Shown here one piece after another: positions 17,474 through 29,046 of a stretch of 64,000 bases of DNA (the stretch's first letter is position 1; each line of letters begins with the position of its first letter). The notes below the pieces were generated by a model. That model did not search any database, was not told the DNA's origin, and saw only the letters and a list, made by a program, of their open reading frames with translations. The position numbers and the translations under genes are program-made. This DNA comes from Burkholderiales bacterium (GTDB lineage: Bacteria > Pseudomonadota > Gammaproteobacteria > Burkholderiales > Burkholderiaceae_E): contig JAIYCW010000001.1 of assembly GCA_027487815.1 (NCBI GenBank), positions 1 to 64,000 on the forward strand, written 5' to 3'.

Positions 17474-18523
17474 TTAAAGCAAACGATTAAACCAGAGCAA
17501 TGACAAGCCGCCCGCCAAAATGGAAAGCAGTAACGCGCCCAAGGCAAACAACGCGGTGATTTCACTTTCCTTGCGCTCAAGTACCAAGCGGGAATTCAAG
17601 GCCTCATACACCTGCTTGAGGTCTGCGCCAGACGCGGCATAAAAGTATTCGCCGACGGTCGTGGCGGCAATTTGCTTGAGGGTTTCTTCATCCAGACGCA
17701 CCCGCATGCGCCAGCCGGAATCGAGCATGATCTCGCCATTGGGCGTACCAAAGCCCACGGTAAAAATCTTGACCCCGCGCTCTGCGGCCAGCTTGGCCGC
17801 CTCCAAAGGATCCGCACCAGTCGTGGTTTGCCCATCACTCAGCACAATGATGGTGGCCGAGGCATAGGAGCCGGGTGGTACCGCTTTAAAGGGCTTTTTG
17901 TCCTTCTTGGGCAAAGGCCCACCAAAGCTTTCCTGTGGCTGGGTGCGGCCCATCATCCCTTTGATTTCGATCTCCTGATCGGGAAACAAAGTCTGCAAAG
18001 ACACCACAATTGCGTTGCCCACGGCTGTGCCGCGTTGCAACTGAAAGCGCTCTATCGCACCCAGTACCTCCTCGCGATTTTCAGTGGGCGGCTGAACCAG
18101 CATCGCCGTGCCGGCAAATGCCACCAACCCTATCCGGGTGTTCGCAGGCAAGTCCGTCACAAACGTGCGAGCCGCTTCCTGCGAGGCACTGATGCGGGTT
18201 GGGGACACATCGGTGGCGCGCATGCTGCCCGATACATCCATTGCCAAAATCACGGTCTTGGTTTGCGACGGCAAGGTGATCACTGCGGAAGGACGCGCCG
18301 CGGCAAGTATCAAAGCGATCATCGCCAGCAGAAAAAGCGCAGGCGGAACATGCCGACGCCAACTGCTCGCACCCTTCATAGCCTCACGCACCATGCCCAG
18401 GGAGGAGTACCGCAAGGCGACCTTCTTTTTACGCTGCAGCACCCACCAATAAAACCACAGCAATAGCGGGACGAGCATGAGAAGCCAAAGGAAATTCGGC
18501 CATTGAAAACTCATTGGATTCAT
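17474..18523 (-). CDS. VWA-domain membrane protein (BatA-like)
   Basis: Protein of 349 residues with the BatA layout. Two N-terminal transmembrane helices (FLWLLMLVPLLLWFYWWVL and HVPPALFLLAMIALILAAA) are followed by a von Willebrand factor A domain with an intact MIDAS DVSGSM near residue 95 and VGFGTPNG later, then a final membrane helix at the C-terminus. A lysine-rich KKDKKP insert sits in the domain. It is the last gene of a MoxR-DUF58-VWA set, sharing one base with the DUF58 gene. Such sets act with MoxR ATPases in envelope stress or complex maturation; the target is unknown. ATG 18514 is an alternative start. Confidence 0.88.
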   Translation of the reverse strand: MNPMSFQWPNFLWLLMLVPLLLWFYWWVLQRKKKVALRYSSLGMVREAMKGASSWRRHVPPALFLLAMIALILAAARPSAVITLPSQTKTVILAMDVSGSMRATDVSPTRISASQEAARTFVTDLPANTRIGLVAFAGTAMLVQPPTENREEVLGAIERFQLQRGTAVGNAIVVSLQTLFPDQEIEIKGMMGRTQPQESFGGPLPKKDKKPFKAVPPGSYASATIIVLSDGQTTTGADPLEAAKLAAERGVKIFTVGFGTPNGEIMLDSGWRMRVRLDEETLKQIAATTVGEYFYAASGADLKQVYEALNSRLVLERKESEITALFALGALLLSILAGGLSLLWFNRLL

Positions 18524-21533: not shown

Positions 21534-24500
21534 CTACCCGGTTTTTGGCACGTTAGCATGAACCACGGATTTGCGTTTGAACATCCTGCCCGGCAGCGAC
21601 ACCAGATCGTCGATCAGGGTGTAGAGCACCGGAATCACCAGGAGACTCAAAAAGGTGCTGGTAATCAACCCGCCAATCACTGCTACCGCCATCGGCGAGC
21701 GAAAGCTCGGATCCACCCCCACGCCGATTGCAATCGGCAACATGCCGGCCCCCATCGCGATAGTTGTCATCACAATTGGGCGCGCACGCTTGTGGCATGC
21801 ATCAATGATTGCATCGAGCCGATTCATGCCTTCGCGGCGGGCAATGATTGCGTAGTCCACCAACAAGATGGAGTTTTTGGTGGCGACTCCCATCAGCATG
21901 ATCAGGCCAATCAGGCTGGGCATCGAAAATGCCTTACCGGTCAGCAGCAAGGCTACGAAAGCTCCACCCACCGAAAGCGGCAGCGCAGCCAATATCGTGA
22001 TCGGTTGAAAGAAGTCTTTGAACAGCAGCACCAGCACGATGTAAATGCAAAGCACGCCAGTGGCCATGGCCAATCCGAAGCTTGCGAACAATTCGCCCAT
22101 CACCTCGGCATCCCCCAGGGTTGCGCGCGTAACGCCGACAGGTAAGTTGTTCAAGCTCGGCAGCTTATCAACCGCCGCAGCAACATCGCCCAGCGGCACA
22201 TTATTGAGTTCGACTTCAATATTGACGTTACGCAAACGATCATAGCGATCAATTTGCGCGGGTCCACTTTCAATGGTGAAGCTCGCAATCGACCCAAGAG
22301 GCACAGCGCCTGATCGACCGGGCACGGTGAGCTGCTTGAGCAACTCAATATCCTGCCGAGCGCTGCTTGGTAAGCGCACCACAATCGGTATCTGACGCTG
22401 ATCAAGATTAAGCTTGGGCAAGGCCGCATCGTAATCGCCCAAGGTTGCGATACGCAGGGTATCTGCAATGGTTGCTGAGCTGACGCCTGCCGCAGCAGCT
22501 TTTTCAAAATCGGGCCGGATGACCAACTCGCCACGGATCAGGCTTGCACTTGAGGCGATGCCTCCCAGGCCAGGAATCGTACGCAACTCGCGCTCCACAA
22601 CCAATGCTGTTGAGCGCAGGGTTTCGCCGTTATCTCCGGAGAGCACAAGCACATACTTCTCACCCGAGCCACCCAGCCCTACCTTGATGCGCACCCCTGG
22701 CAGCTCGCTAATCAGCTCACGCAGGTTGGCTTCAATATCCTGCTTGCTGGTTCCTGAGCGTTCGGTGCGTGGGGTCAAGTTAATCGTCAGCGTAGCCTTG
22801 CGAACCTCAGCGGCTCCGGGAGGAGCAAACGGATCACCCCCACTGCTCCCGCCACCGATAGCGGTGTAGACCATCTTCACATGGGAATTTCGCTCAACCA
22901 GTTGCCGGGCTTTTTCAGCGGCAGCATAGGTGTCTTTCAAAGTACTCCCCGGGGGCAACTCCACAATCACCTGAGTCTGGCTCAAGTCATCTGCAGGGAT
23001 GAACCCGGTGGGCAACAGGGGCACCAGCATCACCGAACCGATGAAGAACAGCCCGGCCAATATGCATGTGATCAAGCGGTGCCCCAGGCACCAGCGCACC
23101 AGTCGCATGTACCAAAGCGTGACCCGGCCATCCTTGTGCTCACGCGTGCTGGGTTTGAGCATGTAAGCAGCCATCATCGGAGTGAGCATCCTGGCCACTA
23201 CCAGCGAAGCAAACACTGCAAGCGCCGCAGTCCAGCCAAACTGCTTGAAGAATTTCCCTGGCACACCACTCATGAATGCAGTGGGTAAAAACACCGCAAT
23301 CAAGGTGAAGGTTGTTGCTATCACTGCCAGCCCGATTTCATCGGCCGCTTCAATCGCTGCCTGCATCGGTGTTTTACCCATCCGCAAATGGCGCATGATG
23401 TTTTCGATCTCAACAATCGCATCATCCACCAGTATGCCGACCACCAGCGACAGGCTTAGCAAGGTGACTACGTTGACCGAAAACCCGAGTGCCCACATGC
23501 CGATGAATGCTGGAATCACCGATAAGGGTAAGGCCGTGGCGGAAACAAACGTGGCACGCCAATCGCGCAAAAAGAGCCACACCACGATCACTGCAAGAAT
23601 GGCTCCTTCATAAAGGAGCCAAAGCGAGCCATCATAGTTTTCCTGTACAGGATCGGTAAAGTTGAAGGCTTCAGTAAATGTCACATCGGGATGAGCGGCT
23701 CGCAGTTGCTCAACTCGCGCGCGAACGCCATCCGCAACTTCTACTTCCCCGGCCGACTTTGCCCGCGAGATCTCAAAGCCCACCACTGGCTTGCCATTGA
23801 GTAATGCAGCCGAGCGCCTTTCGCTCACGGTATCTTTCACACTGGCGACTTGATCGAGCCTGATCCTGCGGCCATCGGCAAGATTCAGCTCGATGGCTGC
23901 CAGCTGCGCGGCATCGGCAACCGTTGCAATCGTTCTGACGGTTTGTTCTTTATCCCCAAGATCGACCCGCCCGCCGGAAAGCTCACGCTGCACTTGCCGC
24001 AGCTGACGCGATACCTCTGCAGCTGTCGCATTGAGTGCAATCATCTTGTAGGGATCAAGCTCAATACGCACTTCGCGGCTCACACCGCCCACGCGCGAAA
24101 CCGCCCCCACGCCCTTCACACTGAGCAAGGCCTTGGCAGCCTCGTTATCCACAAACCAGCTCATTGCCTCCTCATCCATCTTCGACGAGGCCACGGTGTA
24201 GGTCATGATGGGCAGGCCCGCAATGTTGACCTTGGAAATCACGGGATTAAGCAGGTCAGCCGGCAATTCACTGCGAATCCGGTTCACCGCATCACGGGTT
24301 TCATCCAGTGCTTCCTGAGTGGGTTTTTCAAGGCGAAACTCCACCGTGATGACAGCCGATCCATCCTGCACTTTGGTATAGATATGCTTGACGCCTTGCA
24401 GGGTCGCCACCGCATTTTCAATCCGCCTCGCAACCTCGGTTTCAAGTTGACTGGGGGCAGCCCCGGGCAAGTTGGCAGTGATGTTGATTGTGGGTAAGTC

Positions 24501-24620
24501 AATATCCGGAAAGTTCTGAATCTTCATCATGTTGAAGGTCGCAAACCCCGCGAGCGTCAGCAGGACAAAGACCATGACCGAAGCGATCGGATTGCGGATC
24601 GACCATGTGGATACATTCAT
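21534..24620 (-). CDS. RND efflux pump inner-membrane subunit (HAE1/AcrB-like)
   Basis: Proton-driven efflux transporter of 1028 residues with the AcrB layout: helix 1 (IASVMVFVLLTLAGFA), a large periplasmic loop, helices 2-6, a second loop and helices 7-12. The proton relay in helix 4 is intact (VVGILVDDAIVEIENIM, the Asp-Asp pair). GKPVVGFEIS, LPTGFIPADDLSQ and GVATKNSILLVDYAI are family blocks. The branch looks like the broad MexB/MdtBC-like HAE1 group; the substrate is not deducible. Its start overlaps the fusion-protein gene by 4 bases. Confidence 0.95.
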   Translation of the reverse strand: MNVSTWSIRNPIASVMVFVLLTLAGFATFNMMKIQNFPDIDLPTINITANLPGAAPSQLETEVARRIENAVATLQGVKHIYTKVQDGSAVITVEFRLEKPTQEALDETRDAVNRIRSELPADLLNPVISKVNIAGLPIMTYTVASSKMDEEAMSWFVDNEAAKALLSVKGVGAVSRVGGVSREVRIELDPYKMIALNATAAEVSRQLRQVQRELSGGRVDLGDKEQTVRTIATVADAAQLAAIELNLADGRRIRLDQVASVKDTVSERRSAALLNGKPVVGFEISRAKSAGEVEVADGVRARVEQLRAAHPDVTFTEAFNFTDPVQENYDGSLWLLYEGAILAVIVVWLFLRDWRATFVSATALPLSVIPAFIGMWALGFSVNVVTLLSLSLVVGILVDDAIVEIENIMRHLRMGKTPMQAAIEAADEIGLAVIATTFTLIAVFLPTAFMSGVPGKFFKQFGWTAALAVFASLVVARMLTPMMAAYMLKPSTREHKDGRVTLWYMRLVRWCLGHRLITCILAGLFFIGSVMLVPLLPTGFIPADDLSQTQVIVELPPGSTLKDTYAAAEKARQLVERNSHVKMVYTAIGGGSSGGDPFAPPGAAEVRKATLTINLTPRTERSGTSKQDIEANLRELISELPGVRIKVGLGGSGEKYVLVLSGDNGETLRSTALVVERELRTIPGLGGIASSASLIRGELVIRPDFEKAAAAGVSSATIADTLRIATLGDYDAALPKLNLDQRQIPIVVRLPSSARQDIELLKQLTVPGRSGAVPLGSIASFTIESGPAQIDRYDRLRNVNIEVELNNVPLGDVAAAVDKLPSLNNLPVGVTRATLGDAEVMGELFASFGLAMATGVLCIYIVLVLLFKDFFQPITILAALPLSVGGAFVALLLTGKAFSMPSLIGLIMLMGVATKNSILLVDYAIIARREGMNRLDAIIDACHKRARPIVMTTIAMGAGMLPIAIGVGVDPSFRSPMAVAVIGGLITSTFLSLLVIPVLYTLIDDLVSLPGRMFKRKSVVHANVPKTG

Positions 24621-25735
24621 TTGGAATCCACCACCTTGACTTGATCACCATCGCTCAAAAACGCCACACCACTAGCCACCAGCTTGGTGGTGACGGTGAT
24701 GGTTGATGCGCCAGCTCCTGCCATCACCTCAACCCGCTCGGCCACCCGGCGCCCCAATTGCACCTTCACCTGCTCGACCTTGTTATCCGGCATCAAACGA
24801 AACACGTAGGCAAAGCCATCGCGCTGCAGGATTGCAGATTGCGGAATGCTCAGGCCGGTACTTGATCCGGTAGCAAACTCGCCGCGCACAAACAATCCCG
24901 GACGCAGTTCAGAGGACAAGGGCAGACTGACATAGACCAACCCATTGCGGGTCTGCGCATCTACTGTTGGGGCTACCATCCTGATCTTGCCTGCAAGCGG
25001 GGCTGCACCATCGGCAAGAAACACTTTCACCGCTTGGCCCGGCTTCAACAGGCGTAATGCCGTGCCCGGCACTTCAGCACGCCATTCAATACGACTTTGC
25101 CGAATCAGCCGAAACAAATCCTGCCCAGGTTGCGCCATCGCACCCACGCTTGCGCTACGCGCAGAGATCACCCCTTCATCGGGCGCCACAATCCGGGTGT
25201 TTTGCAATCGCAACTGCACTGCTTGGACTTGAGCCTGCACCAACTGCACCCGCACCTGGGTTTGCTTTTCAGTGTTGAGTAACTGGCTGATCTGTTGAGC
25301 TGATAAAGCCTGTGTGCCACTGGCTTCGATTTTTCGGGCGCGGTCGGCCTGCTCTTTCGCATCCGCGGCGAGCACCTGAGCCTCGGCCAGGCTCGCACGA
25401 GATTGCGCGAGTTCGTTGTCGATTTCCGCTGCGCGCAGCGTGGCGAGTACCTGGCCCTTCACCACACGATCCCCGATATCCACCATGACCTGTTCGATCC
25501 TGAGTGCATTGGTCTGCGCGCCAATCACCACCTCTTGCCAGGGTGCAAGCGCACCATTGGCCATCAGTGTTTGCGGCCACTCCTGTTGCAGCGGAGAAAT
25601 CAGGCTCACGCTCAAGGCTGCGCGCCCGGCCTTGGCAGGCTTTCCTGCTGCGTCAGGGGCTTGAGCGGATCCTGGAGTTGCAGCGAGCAGCGCCACCGCG
25701 CCCGCGATCATCCATGTGGTCAATTGCAATTTCAT
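24617..25735 (-). CDS. RND efflux periplasmic adaptor (membrane fusion protein)
   Basis: Periplasmic adaptor of 372 residues that links the RND pump to the outer-membrane channel. It starts with a Sec signal peptide (MIAGAVALLAATPGSAQA). It has a lipoyl-like half-motif (VVKGQVLATLRAAEID), a long alpha-hairpin rich in Ala/Gln/Glu (residues about 110-175), the second half (RIVAPDEGVISARSASVGAMAQPGQDLFRL), then beta-barrel and membrane-proximal domains. There is no lipobox Cys. It lies 18 bases after the outer-membrane channel gene. Confidence 0.93.
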   Translation of the reverse strand: MKLQLTTWMIAGAVALLAATPGSAQAPDAAGKPAKAGRAALSVSLISPLQQEWPQTLMANGALAPWQEVVIGAQTNALRIEQVMVDIGDRVVKGQVLATLRAAEIDNELAQSRASLAEAQVLAADAKEQADRARKIEASGTQALSAQQISQLLNTEKQTQVRVQLVQAQVQAVQLRLQNTRIVAPDEGVISARSASVGAMAQPGQDLFRLIRQSRIEWRAEVPGTALRLLKPGQAVKVFLADGAAPLAGKIRMVAPTVDAQTRNGLVYVSLPLSSELRPGLFVRGEFATGSSTGLSIPQSAILQRDGFAYVFRLMPDNKVEQVKVQLGRRVAERVEVMAGAGASTITVTTKLVASGVAFLSDGDQVKVVDSK

Positions 25736-25753: not shown

Positions 25754-27250
25754 CTATTGAGGGGTTCGGAAAGAAGCCAAGGCACTTGAAGTCCCCTGCC
25801 AACCGCTTCCCAAGGCCTTGTAGAGCGCAAGTTGTGCGAGCAATGCTTCACGTTGAATCACGACAATTTGCTGCCTAGCGCTGAGCGTTTGGCGGCGTCC
25901 GTCTGCCAACTCACTGGCTGCGGCAAGGCCCACTTGCAAGCGTTGTTCAATCAAGCGCTGGGCGGTAATGGTTTGCTCGAGCAACTCGTTTTGCACACCG
26001 AGCCTGTCCTGGGCGCTTTGGAGTTTCACCATCGCTTCTTCAACTTCACGCACTGCTTGAGCAGCGCGTTCGCGATACTGCGCTGCTGCCTCGGTATATC
26101 GGGCCTTGGCGGCATTCACATCGGCCTTGCGCCGACCGCCATCAAACAAGGGCAACCCCAGGGTTGGAGCAACGCTCCAGCTAATGCCATTGGAGTTTCC
26201 AATGCTGTTGGAGCGTAACCAGCCAGGACCCACCTGCCCGGTCAGTGCAAGCCGGGGGTAACGCGCAGCATCACTTACACCGATATCGAACTGGGCCGCT
26301 TCCAGCTCTAACGCAAGCGCCACCAGATCGGGCCGCTCTCCAATCCATTGCGCAGGTAAGGTGTTGACCGGAAGTGGCTGGGCCCTGGGTAACCCTTGCA
26401 TCACAACCTGCTTCAAGACCGGGGCATACATTTCGCGAAGCCGGGCCTCGTTGATCAAGCTCAACGTGCTTAAAGCCTTAAATCCCAGATCACATTGCTC
26501 GACCTGCGCGAGCTCCCGTTGACGCGCTTCGGTGAGTTGGCGGCTTGCGATATTCAATTCCGGTGTGCCAGCCAATCCTGCCTGCAAGCGCACCCTTACA
26601 AGATTTTCGCTCGCGGCTACCAAGCGGGTGTCTTCCTTGGTCACTGCGACTGCCATCGCGCAAGCAAGAATGCCCAAATGGGTTTGGGCCACTTCTGAGG
26701 CCACCGCTGAAGCAAGTTCCTGGGCCGAAACAACGCGGGCTAACAAGCGTTGCTCTGCCGCTTGAGCCCGCATCGCATTGGCACCCCAGATATCAATTTC
26801 CCAGGCGGCATCCAAAAGAATGCTGGCTGTGTTGAGAAGCAGCCCCGGAGGGAACAACACATTGCGCGCACGCGAGACCCGATTGTTCAGATCCAGCGAT
26901 GGCAGGCCTGAGCTTTGCGCACTTGCAAGCAAGGCGCGCGATTGGGCCACCCGGGCTTGCGCGGCCTCGAGATTGGGTGAGCCAGCCAGAGTCTGTTTTT
27001 GAAGCTCCAGCAACAAGGCATCATTCCAGCTTTGATACCAGTTTTGCGGATTTGCCGCGCTACCGGACGGATCAGATGATGCTCGCCCTGCCAGGGCTTC
27101 CCAGCGATTGTGATGCTCCAAAGCGCGCGCTTGCTCAGCATTGACCTTGCTGCGGGTTTGTTCAGAGCTTACTGACGTGCATCCGGCGCCCACTAGCACG
27201 AGGCCCGCCAACAAGGCACAACGTGCTGACTTGAAATTGACTAGCGGCAT
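25754..27250 (-). CDS. Outer-membrane efflux lipoprotein (TolC/OprM family)
   Basis: Outer-membrane channel of about 498 residues. The ATG at 27250 is chosen because a lipobox follows (LAGLVLVGAGC, Cys about 23 residues in) and AGGG lies seven bases upstream; the frame continues to 27520 but that part is out-of-frame shadow of the TetR gene. Two OEP repeats are visible, each with a long helical region (LEAAQARVAQSRALLASAQSS and ARYTEAAAQYRERAAQAVREVEEA split by variable parts) and WSVAPTLGLPLFDGGRR near the second barrel strand. It is the first pump gene, ten bases after the TetR stop. Confidence 0.92.
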   Translation of the reverse strand: MPLVNFKSARCALLAGLVLVGAGCTSVSSEQTRSKVNAEQARALEHHNRWEALAGRASSDPSGSAANPQNWYQSWNDALLLELQKQTLAGSPNLEAAQARVAQSRALLASAQSSGLPSLDLNNRVSRARNVLFPPGLLLNTASILLDAAWEIDIWGANAMRAQAAEQRLLARVVSAQELASAVASEVAQTHLGILACAMAVAVTKEDTRLVAASENLVRVRLQAGLAGTPELNIASRQLTEARQRELAQVEQCDLGFKALSTLSLINEARLREMYAPVLKQVVMQGLPRAQPLPVNTLPAQWIGERPDLVALALELEAAQFDIGVSDAARYPRLALTGQVGPGWLRSNSIGNSNGISWSVAPTLGLPLFDGGRRKADVNAAKARYTEAAAQYRERAAQAVREVEEAMVKLQSAQDRLGVQNELLEQTITAQRLIEQRLQVGLAAASELADGRRQTLSARQQIVVIQREALLAQLALYKALGSGWQGTSSALASFRTPQ

Positions 27251-27260
27251 AACATCCCTT

Positions 27261-27983
27261 TCACTTTCGCGCCCTTTTTGAAGCTGCGGGTTTTGATCCG
27301 AACTCGGGCGAGACGCGCCTCGCTTTCTCAGCCTGAACCATCCCAAACCCCAGATCACATAGGTGCTGGATGGTGTCATCAAGCCAGGACTTGCGCGCTC
27401 GCAATTGCGGAGAGAGCTCGGACATAAACGCCTCCGACATCCAGTAATCATTGGCGATCGAAATGAGTGCAAAGGCCAGGCGGTGCACCGCCACATCCGA
27501 ATGCGCCAGACCAAGCTCACGCATCAACATATTTTCAAGTTGTAAAAACATCGGGCCTACTGTGCCCCGCACCCACTGCTTGAAGACCAGACTCGGATCG
27601 GCACATTCACGAAAATGGATCTTCATCATCAAGCGCGACTCCTGGTCATCTGCATCCAGATCGCCAATAAAGCCACGATACAAGCCCTCGAGCGCCTGAG
27701 CGAACGGCACACTGCGATGCTCAAGTTGCTCAAAGGCTTCGCCCACCGAGGCTGAAAGCTCGGTCAGCACTGCCCGGTAGAGGCCTTCCTTGTCGCCAAA
27801 GTGGTAGCTGATTAGCGCAACGTTTGCATTGGCTGCTCCAGCAATGGCGCGGGTGGAGGCGGCCGCAAACCCGTGTTCGGCAAACTGCCGCAACCCGGCG
27901 TGAAGCAACCGGGTGCGAGCGTCTGCTCCCTGGGTGGCAGACGCAGAAGATTTGGCCGGTCGGCCGACAACACTATTTGGCAT
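27261..27983 (-). CDS. TetR-family regulator of the RND operon
   Basis: DNA-binding repressor of about 240 residues. The N-terminal helix-turn-helix is typical: LLHAGLRQFAEHGFAAASTRAIAGAANAN with ISYHFGDKEGLYRAVL. The C-terminal part resembles the CerR/YbiH type. ATG 27983 is taken as start; a GTG three codons upstream (27992) lies inside the -10 hexamer and is unlikely. A 34-base operator overlaps its promoter, so it probably represses itself together with the pump genes that follow after ten bases. No other promoter is visible between it and the channel gene. The tail is basic (PAASKRARK). Confidence 0.92.
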   Translation of the reverse strand: MPNSVVGRPAKSSASATQGADARTRLLHAGLRQFAEHGFAAASTRAIAGAANANVALISYHFGDKEGLYRAVLTELSASVGEAFEQLEHRSVPFAQALEGLYRGFIGDLDADDQESRLMMKIHFRECADPSLVFKQWVRGTVGPMFLQLENMLMRELGLAHSDVAVHRLAFALISIANDYWMSEAFMSELSPQLRARKSWLDDTIQHLCDLGFGMVQAEKARRVSPEFGSKPAASKRARK

Positions 27984-27990
27984 GGCGCGC

Positions 27991-28019
27991 ACTTTAGCGC
28001 CCCAGATTTAATTAGTCAA
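27991..28019 (-). promoter_or_regulatory. Promoter of the TetR-RND operon, apparently leaderless
   Basis: On the minus strand TTGACT (28019-28014), a 17-base spacer and TAAAGT (27996-27991) form a good sigma-70 promoter. Only seven bases separate the -10 hexamer from the ATG at 27983, so transcription should start at or next to the A of the ATG, giving a leaderless message for the regulator. Confidence 0.65.
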
Positions 28020-28038
28020 ACGATTGATTAATTAAATC
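28005..28038. promoter_or_regulatory. Palindromic operator for the TetR regulator
   Basis: Fifteen-base arms GATTTAATTAGTCAA (28005-28019) and TTGATTAATTAAATC (28024-28038) are inverted repeats with one mismatch around the 4-base spacer ACGA. The element is AT-rich in GC-rich surroundings and covers the -35 hexamer of the tetR promoter, the classic position for TetR-family self-repression. Confidence 0.8.
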
Positions 28039-28098
28039 AGGTATCAGGAGAAACATCACCGGCAGTGGTTAAAGCCTCGCAACCGCGCCAGCAACACG

Positions 28099-29046
28099 CT
28101 ATTTTTTGGCTAGCTTGGTCACAATACTCAGACCATTGATCTGCTCATGCATCCTCAGCATTGAAGGCGTGTAGGACTCCCCCAATCCCAAAGCGCTTGC
28201 CTGCACAAAGGCCTGATGCACCGATTGCGCAACCGGCGCAGGCATTCCAAGCTGCTCGGTGAGGTGGCCGTAATAGCTCAAATCCTTTTGCGCATTGGCA
28301 ATTGAAAACTTGAGCCGCTCCAGATCACCCTCCAAGGCTCCACCGATCATGCCTTGCATCAGCCCCGAATTCACCGCGCCAACACTCATCAAATCAAAAA
28401 GCTTCTTAAGATCCAGTCCCGCTTTAGCTGCGGCCGCATACCCTTCCGCCAAAGCCGCAATCTGGGCCAGAGAAACAAAATTATTGACAAGCTTCATGGT
28501 GTGCCCAGCTCCTGGCCCACCCACATGAAAGATGTTTTCGCAAAAAGCTGAGAGCACCGGCTTGATACGCAGAAAATCAGCCTCACTCGCTCCTACCATG
28601 ATGTTCAAGCGCCCTTCCTGCGCCTCTTTGGGCGTGCGGGCAAGCGGCGCATCAATGAATGTGACGCCCTGCTTTTCACAGGCTTCGCGCACGCGGGTTG
28701 TGGAGGCGGGCTCGGCGGTTGAGCAATCAATAATCGTCAGGCCTGCAGGCGGTGCGGACAACACTCCCGGCTGCTCACCACCCAGCACAATCTCTTCAAC
28801 CTGCTTTGAGCCTGTCACGCAGAGAAACAAAATATCGCTTGCCTGAGCGCAAGCCAAATTACTCGAAGTCTCTTTTGCACCTGCCTCAATCAGAGCCTGC
28901 GCAGCAGCACGATTACGATGCACGCGCACGCTCAAGGGATAACCCTTGGCAAGCAAGTTGCTCGCCATTCCCTGGCCCATCAGGCCGATACCAATAAAGC
29001 CGATGCGAGGCAGGCCGGTTGTAGTTGATGAACTGCTCACGATCAA
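28099..29046 (-). CDS. NAD(P)-dependent oxidoreductase, 3-hydroxyisobutyrate dehydrogenase family
   Basis: Beta-hydroxyacid dehydrogenase of 315 residues. The Rossmann motif is IGFIGIGLMGQGMASNLL (about residues 15-32). The substrate segment reads DAPLARTPKEAQEGRLNIMVG, where the usual SGG after DAP is replaced by ART, and the catalytic Lys is in GAGHTMKLVNN. Relatives reduce tartronate semialdehyde or oxidise 3-hydroxyisobutyrate; this variant could act on another short hydroxyacid. It is the third gene of a set with an AhpD-like gene (4-base overlap) and a glycosyltransferase. Confidence 0.88.
   Translation of the reverse strand: MIVSSSSTTTGLPRIGFIGIGLMGQGMASNLLAKGYPLSVRVHRNRAAAQALIEAGAKETSSNLACAQASDILFLCVTGSKQVEEIVLGGEQPGVLSAPPAGLTIIDCSTAEPASTTRVREACEKQGVTFIDAPLARTPKEAQEGRLNIMVGASEADFLRIKPVLSAFCENIFHVGGPGAGHTMKLVNNFVSLAQIAALAEGYAAAAKAGLDLKKLFDLMSVGAVNSGLMQGMIGGALEGDLERLKFSIANAQKDLSYYGHLTEQLGMPAPVAQSVHQAFVQASALGLGESYTPSMLRMHEQINGLSIVTKLAKK

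Follow-up and report, generated by a model that had tools for sequence, protein, structure and literature searches.

The window, which is the whole 64-kb stretch of DNA analyzed, contains four closely spaced genes on the minus strand in the order tetR, outer membrane factor, adaptor, and RND permease. A near-perfect palindrome lies 18 bp upstream of tetR, whose ATG is at 27983.

21534..24620, minus strand: RND permease (PF00873, E 8.7e-232)
24617..25735, minus strand: RND periplasmic adaptor (TIGR01730, 167.5 bits, cut-off 94.9)
25754..27250, minus strand: outer membrane factor, NodT type (TIGR01845, 225.2 bits, cut-off 210.05)
27261..27983, minus strand: tetR, 240 aa, TetR_N and CecR_C domains (PF00440, E 4.1e-13; PF09209, E 3.3e-10)
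28002..28041, no strand: 40-bp near-perfect palindrome, predicted operator (17/20 pairs)

The outer membrane factor (searched as 25754-27253, one codon beyond the ATG at 27250), the adaptor, and the RND permease together make up a tripartite RND efflux operon. The genes behind tetR are therefore those of an RND pump, which bears out the description of the TetR protein as a pump regulator in the sequence-only reading. We infer that tetR and the three pump genes form a single transcript. The tetR product is a TetR protein with a CecR-type C-terminal domain; PF00440 scores 49.3 bits and PF09209 scores 40.5 bits, both above their curated cut-offs of 24. The score against the CecR equivalog profile (NF008587) is 49.2 bits versus the 365 required, and the score against the Vibrio PsrA equivalog (NF053516) is 48 bits versus a cut-off of 300. 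By these profiles, the window regulator is a relative of CecR and not CecR itself. It has 48 of 212 aligned residues in common with Escherichia coli CecR, and 30 of 69 within the DNA-binding part. Around the recognition helix a common pattern is found: the window protein reads N..[AL]..Y.FGDK, more than 80% of the aligned rows have N..A..Y.FGDK, and E. coli CecR has FGSK.

The palindrome was analyzed for its geometry and its likelihood of arising by chance. The feature first noticed by eye at 28005-28038 was confirmed as two 15-bp arms (28005-28019 and 28024-28038) with one mismatch and a 4-nt centre between them. Symmetry reaches further out, to 28002-28041, with the dyad at 28021.5. The 17 of 20 pairs are the top score in the 64 kb, and the runner-up has 15. 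Dinucleotide shuffles of the whole window attained 17 pairs in 3 of 200 cases and local 200-bp dinucleotide shuffles in 0 of 2000, and when the 40-mer alone was shuffled 5000 times, no shuffle exceeded 14 pairs. These results indicate that the palindrome is unusual by symmetry alone, not impossible, and the case for an operator is made by its place and sequence rather than by its symmetry. The earlier description of an AT-rich core differs in one detail: the AT-rich GATTTAATTA is the outer arm and not the centre. What relatives have in common with the window is the TCAAACGATTGA at the centre; the outer GATTTAATTA arms are not part of this element, and outer arms of such length were not found in the seven other sites compared.

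An operator motif was learned from homologues. The upstream regions of 50 of 86 homologues (tblastn E below 1e-15), with the window excluded, were used in a symmetric motif search at six widths from 14 to 24. The learned motif is TTCAAACAATTGTTTGAA-like, and its best match in the whole 64 kb falls inside the palindrome at 6 of 6 widths. This match of an independently derived motif supports the earlier assignment of the palindrome as the operator of the pump regulator. Two overlapping matches lie within the palindrome.

28016..28031, minus strand: best match to the CecR-type 16-mer motif, TTAATCAATCGTTTGA (rank 1 in 64 kb)
28012..28027, plus strand: second match, overlapping and dyad-related at a 4-bp offset, TTAGTCAAACGATTGA (rank 2, 3, or 5 by width)

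The two halves of the window 16-mer are unequal: GTTTGA is strong, and the other is weaker. Motifs trained on shuffled upstream regions at width 16 placed their best match inside the palindrome in 0 of 20 runs, and their likelihoods were at best 69.9 versus 472.3 for the real run, with 12 search starts per shuffled control and 25 for the real run. The next match of the real motif in the window, near 17475, falls in the gap where two convergent genes meet end to end and was dropped. The palindrome is thus a TCAAnCnnnnGnTTGA-like palindrome shortly before a regulator gene, as in a CecR-type operator, where the operator motif is defined from relatives in the present analysis and not from a published CecR box. 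A literature search found no paper on a described CecR box, and the motif is not claimed as new.

Conservation was measured in 34 relatives of the same order, which comprise L032 and those same-order matches with E values of 1e-22 or lower from which loci were made. L010 (a weaker match in two pieces), L088 (the same contig stretch as L033), and two matches without a locus were left out, and the order, Burkholderiales, was deduced from L032 and L033. Leave-one-out scoring found a site scoring at least 12 in 33 of the 34 relatives, and L083 was the one without a site. Several of the 34 relatives are near duplicates of one another, and together they hold 29 distinct best 16-mers. A site of this kind recurs ahead of the regulator gene in these relatives and ahead of cecR in E. 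coli, in agreement with the operator reading. In all 20 relatives with long flanks, which were hand-picked from the list (L123-L142), tetR is followed by adaptor and RND genes in the same orientation, and in 15 of the 20 an outer membrane factor could be detected. RND genes lie behind the regulator gene on the same strand in only 7 of 26 more distant relatives (L034-L059), so the link to a pump is tight only in the closer group. Two or three tandem operator copies, 18 to 33 bp apart, are present in L002, L003, L004, L044, L090, L094, and L104, in contrast to the overlapping pair of the window. The Desulfovibrio-type relatives L038, L047, and L058 have TCAATCAAGCGTTTTAATC before the regulator gene, close to the window form. 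The regulator reading frames of L009 and L093 each contain one in-frame stop.

The sequence-only reading placed the palindrome over the tetR -35, and a -35-like TTGACT is indeed inside it on the minus strand (28019-28014).

28014..28019, minus strand: -35-like hexamer TTGACT, within the predicted operator (consensus match only)
27991..27996, minus strand: -10-like hexamer TAAAGT, 7 nt before the tetR ATG (consensus match only)

TTGACT-17-TAAAGT has 9 of 12 matches to the consensus and is the sole promoter-like site found in 27900-28200, where shuffles give 0.2 on average. A promoter-like pair with at least 9 of 12 matches is present upstream of the gene at 11 of the 29 distinct relative sites, and none at this threshold was found at the other 18. 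The best pair overlaps the site in 9 of these 11 cases, where random placement expects 1.8. The position of the site varies among relatives (many of the pairs are weak): it fills the spacer in some and contains the -35 in others, and the window resembles the latter. No ribosome-binding site was seen before the tetR ATG (window 27983-27996), and the -10-like hexamer is only 7 nt ahead; a leaderless tetR mRNA is therefore possible. The distance from the -10-like hexamer to the ATG is 8-9 nt in L032, L033, and L081, with weak promoter matches in L032 and L033.

Three known systems were compared with the window. In E. coli K-12, TTAATCAATCATTTGATTAA closely precedes cecR, and 18 of its 20 bases are identical to the central TTAATCAATCGTTTGACTAA of the window read on the minus strand. 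The best match of the motif in the 8-kb cecR region of E. coli falls in that 20-mer at the four widths tried. A table in a genomic-SELEX paper gives cecR-ybh/rhlE as a target of E. coli CecR (PMC8249747). The window regulator resembles E. coli CecR (YbiH) in being a TetR protein with a CecR_C domain encoded by the first gene of an export operon, and resembles cecR-ybhGFSR in having the near-identical central palindrome just before the regulator gene. The two loci differ in that cecR-ybhGFSR encodes an ABC exporter whereas the window encodes an RND pump, and the palindrome is longer in the window than before E. coli cecR. The TetR protein PsrA is described as footprinted on TTCAAACN4GTTTGAA (PMC13104628). 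The predicted autoregulatory palindrome of the window is of this kind and comparable to the Pseudomonas PsrA site C/GAAAC(N2-4)GTTTG/C (PMC13104628, PMC10304680). Unlike the window regulator, PsrA governs fatty-acid and rpoS genes. E. coli EefR is described as a TetR repressor that in gel shifts binds a palindrome preceding both its gene and the pump operon eefABCD (PMC12482432). The window has the same arrangement of a TetR gene with a palindrome ahead of itself and a pump operon, but the EefR operator, TGAGAACGATCATTCTCA, is different.

The palindrome could also act as RNA, as the terminator or attenuator hairpin of the same-strand upstream gene (28099-29046). That gene runs in the same direction as tetR, and the minus-strand RNA can form a long stem (-17.1 kcal/mol, z = -2.66, equalled by 5 of 200 shuffles). 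Such a stem would arise from any DNA palindrome, no T run follows this one, and relatives retain the motif but not the long stem. The hairpin reading was rejected as very unlikely because no terminator-like site was found in 27900-28200. Chance alone could also produce symmetry in AT-rich intergenic DNA, and the whole-window shuffles (3 of 200 reaching 17/20 pairs) are the argument for it, but this reading is extremely improbable given the independent motif, the position before a regulator gene, and the E. coli match.

The operator might instead serve a different regulator, for example a fatty-acid sensor like PsrA, that is encoded at another place in the genome and acts on the pump. The consensus of PsrA sites is the same, and in other genomes two near matches to the window site (L203, L205) precede TetR genes with another C-terminal domain, TetR_C_30. 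In relatives, however, the site precedes the local regulator's own gene, and the five other TetR matches to the window protein in this genome have E values of 2.6e-7 or worse. We regard a different regulator in place of the local one as highly unlikely; a different regulator as an additional one at the site is possible.

The favored reading, at a probability of roughly 0.9, is that the palindrome is the predicted operator for autoregulation by the CecR-type TetR repressor whose gene lies next to it on the downstream side; this repressor would repress the pump operon. One dimer, or two overlapping dimers, would bind the central TTAATCAATCGTTTGACTAA. The bound repressor would block RNA polymerase at the tetR-outer membrane factor-adaptor-RND operon; exclusion of the polymerase is proposed because the site holds the -35-like hexamer of the operon. 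A pump substrate or related small molecule would free the repressor from the operator, and the regulator and pump would then be produced together. What the analysis shows is the palindrome, its co-conservation with the regulator gene, the overlap with a promoter-like sequence, and the order of the genes; binding, repression, ligand release, and the number of dimers at the site are what we infer.

The palindrome had also been offered as a key to a wider regulon, and the genome scan does not uphold this use. It occurs once in the 3.7-Mb assembly; no second copy was found with a 30-bp pattern allowing up to 3 mismatches, and the regulon is therefore probably the tetR-pump operon alone. With 91 contigs and a completeness of 95.57%, the assembly may lack a site. 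The exact family-core pattern occurs at three places in the same genome. The two besides the window's own were rejected as operators since both are inside reading frames, as is one of the one-mismatch core matches. Allowing up to 1 mismatch in the core pattern gives 97 matches versus 59 for the reversed control, and loose matching is therefore uninformative.

In scans of 399 and 369 genomes, a few of which (such as the window's own) are in both sets, the exact 20-mer pattern was seen in two genomes only, the window's own and that of L201. Both exact sites directly precede a TetR gene with CecR_C, and adaptor and RND matches also lie behind the TetR gene of L201. The 78 loci examined, which include one place twice and are part of the matches listed, contain 7 that adjoin a profile-matching TetR gene, the window's own included. 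Such a gene lies beside 1 of 4 distinct places at 1 mismatch and 4 of 71 loci at 2 mismatches, and CecR_C is present in only two of these five. Most of these inexact matches, at 1 or 2 mismatches, are attributable to chance. The six other TetR-adjoining loci encode CecR_C (L201, L207, L172), TetR_C_30 (L203, L205), or the DNA-binding domain only (L164). The TetR_C_30 genes of L203 and L205, which lack CecR_C, come directly after near copies of the same operator.

L203 and L205 point to a code common beyond CecR_C proteins. A tentative extension, which we consider rather doubtful, is that one operator code, TCAAnCnnnnGnTTGA in 1-3 copies over the promoter, serves the CecR_C-type export regulators of Burkholderiales, E. 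coli, Deltaproteobacteria, and Verrucomicrobia as well as TetR_C_30 (PsrA-like) proteins, with the 40-bp palindrome of the window being two overlapping sites. In that variant, the 4-bp offset could let two dimers share one stretch of DNA. The window site itself would be ordinary local autoregulation of a pump, a well-supported case of a kind of control site already known. The analysis turns a pattern spotted by eye into a tested operator prediction with the type of regulator named, and the motif may help to predict operators of further pump operons that have a CecR-type regulator and are uncharacterised.
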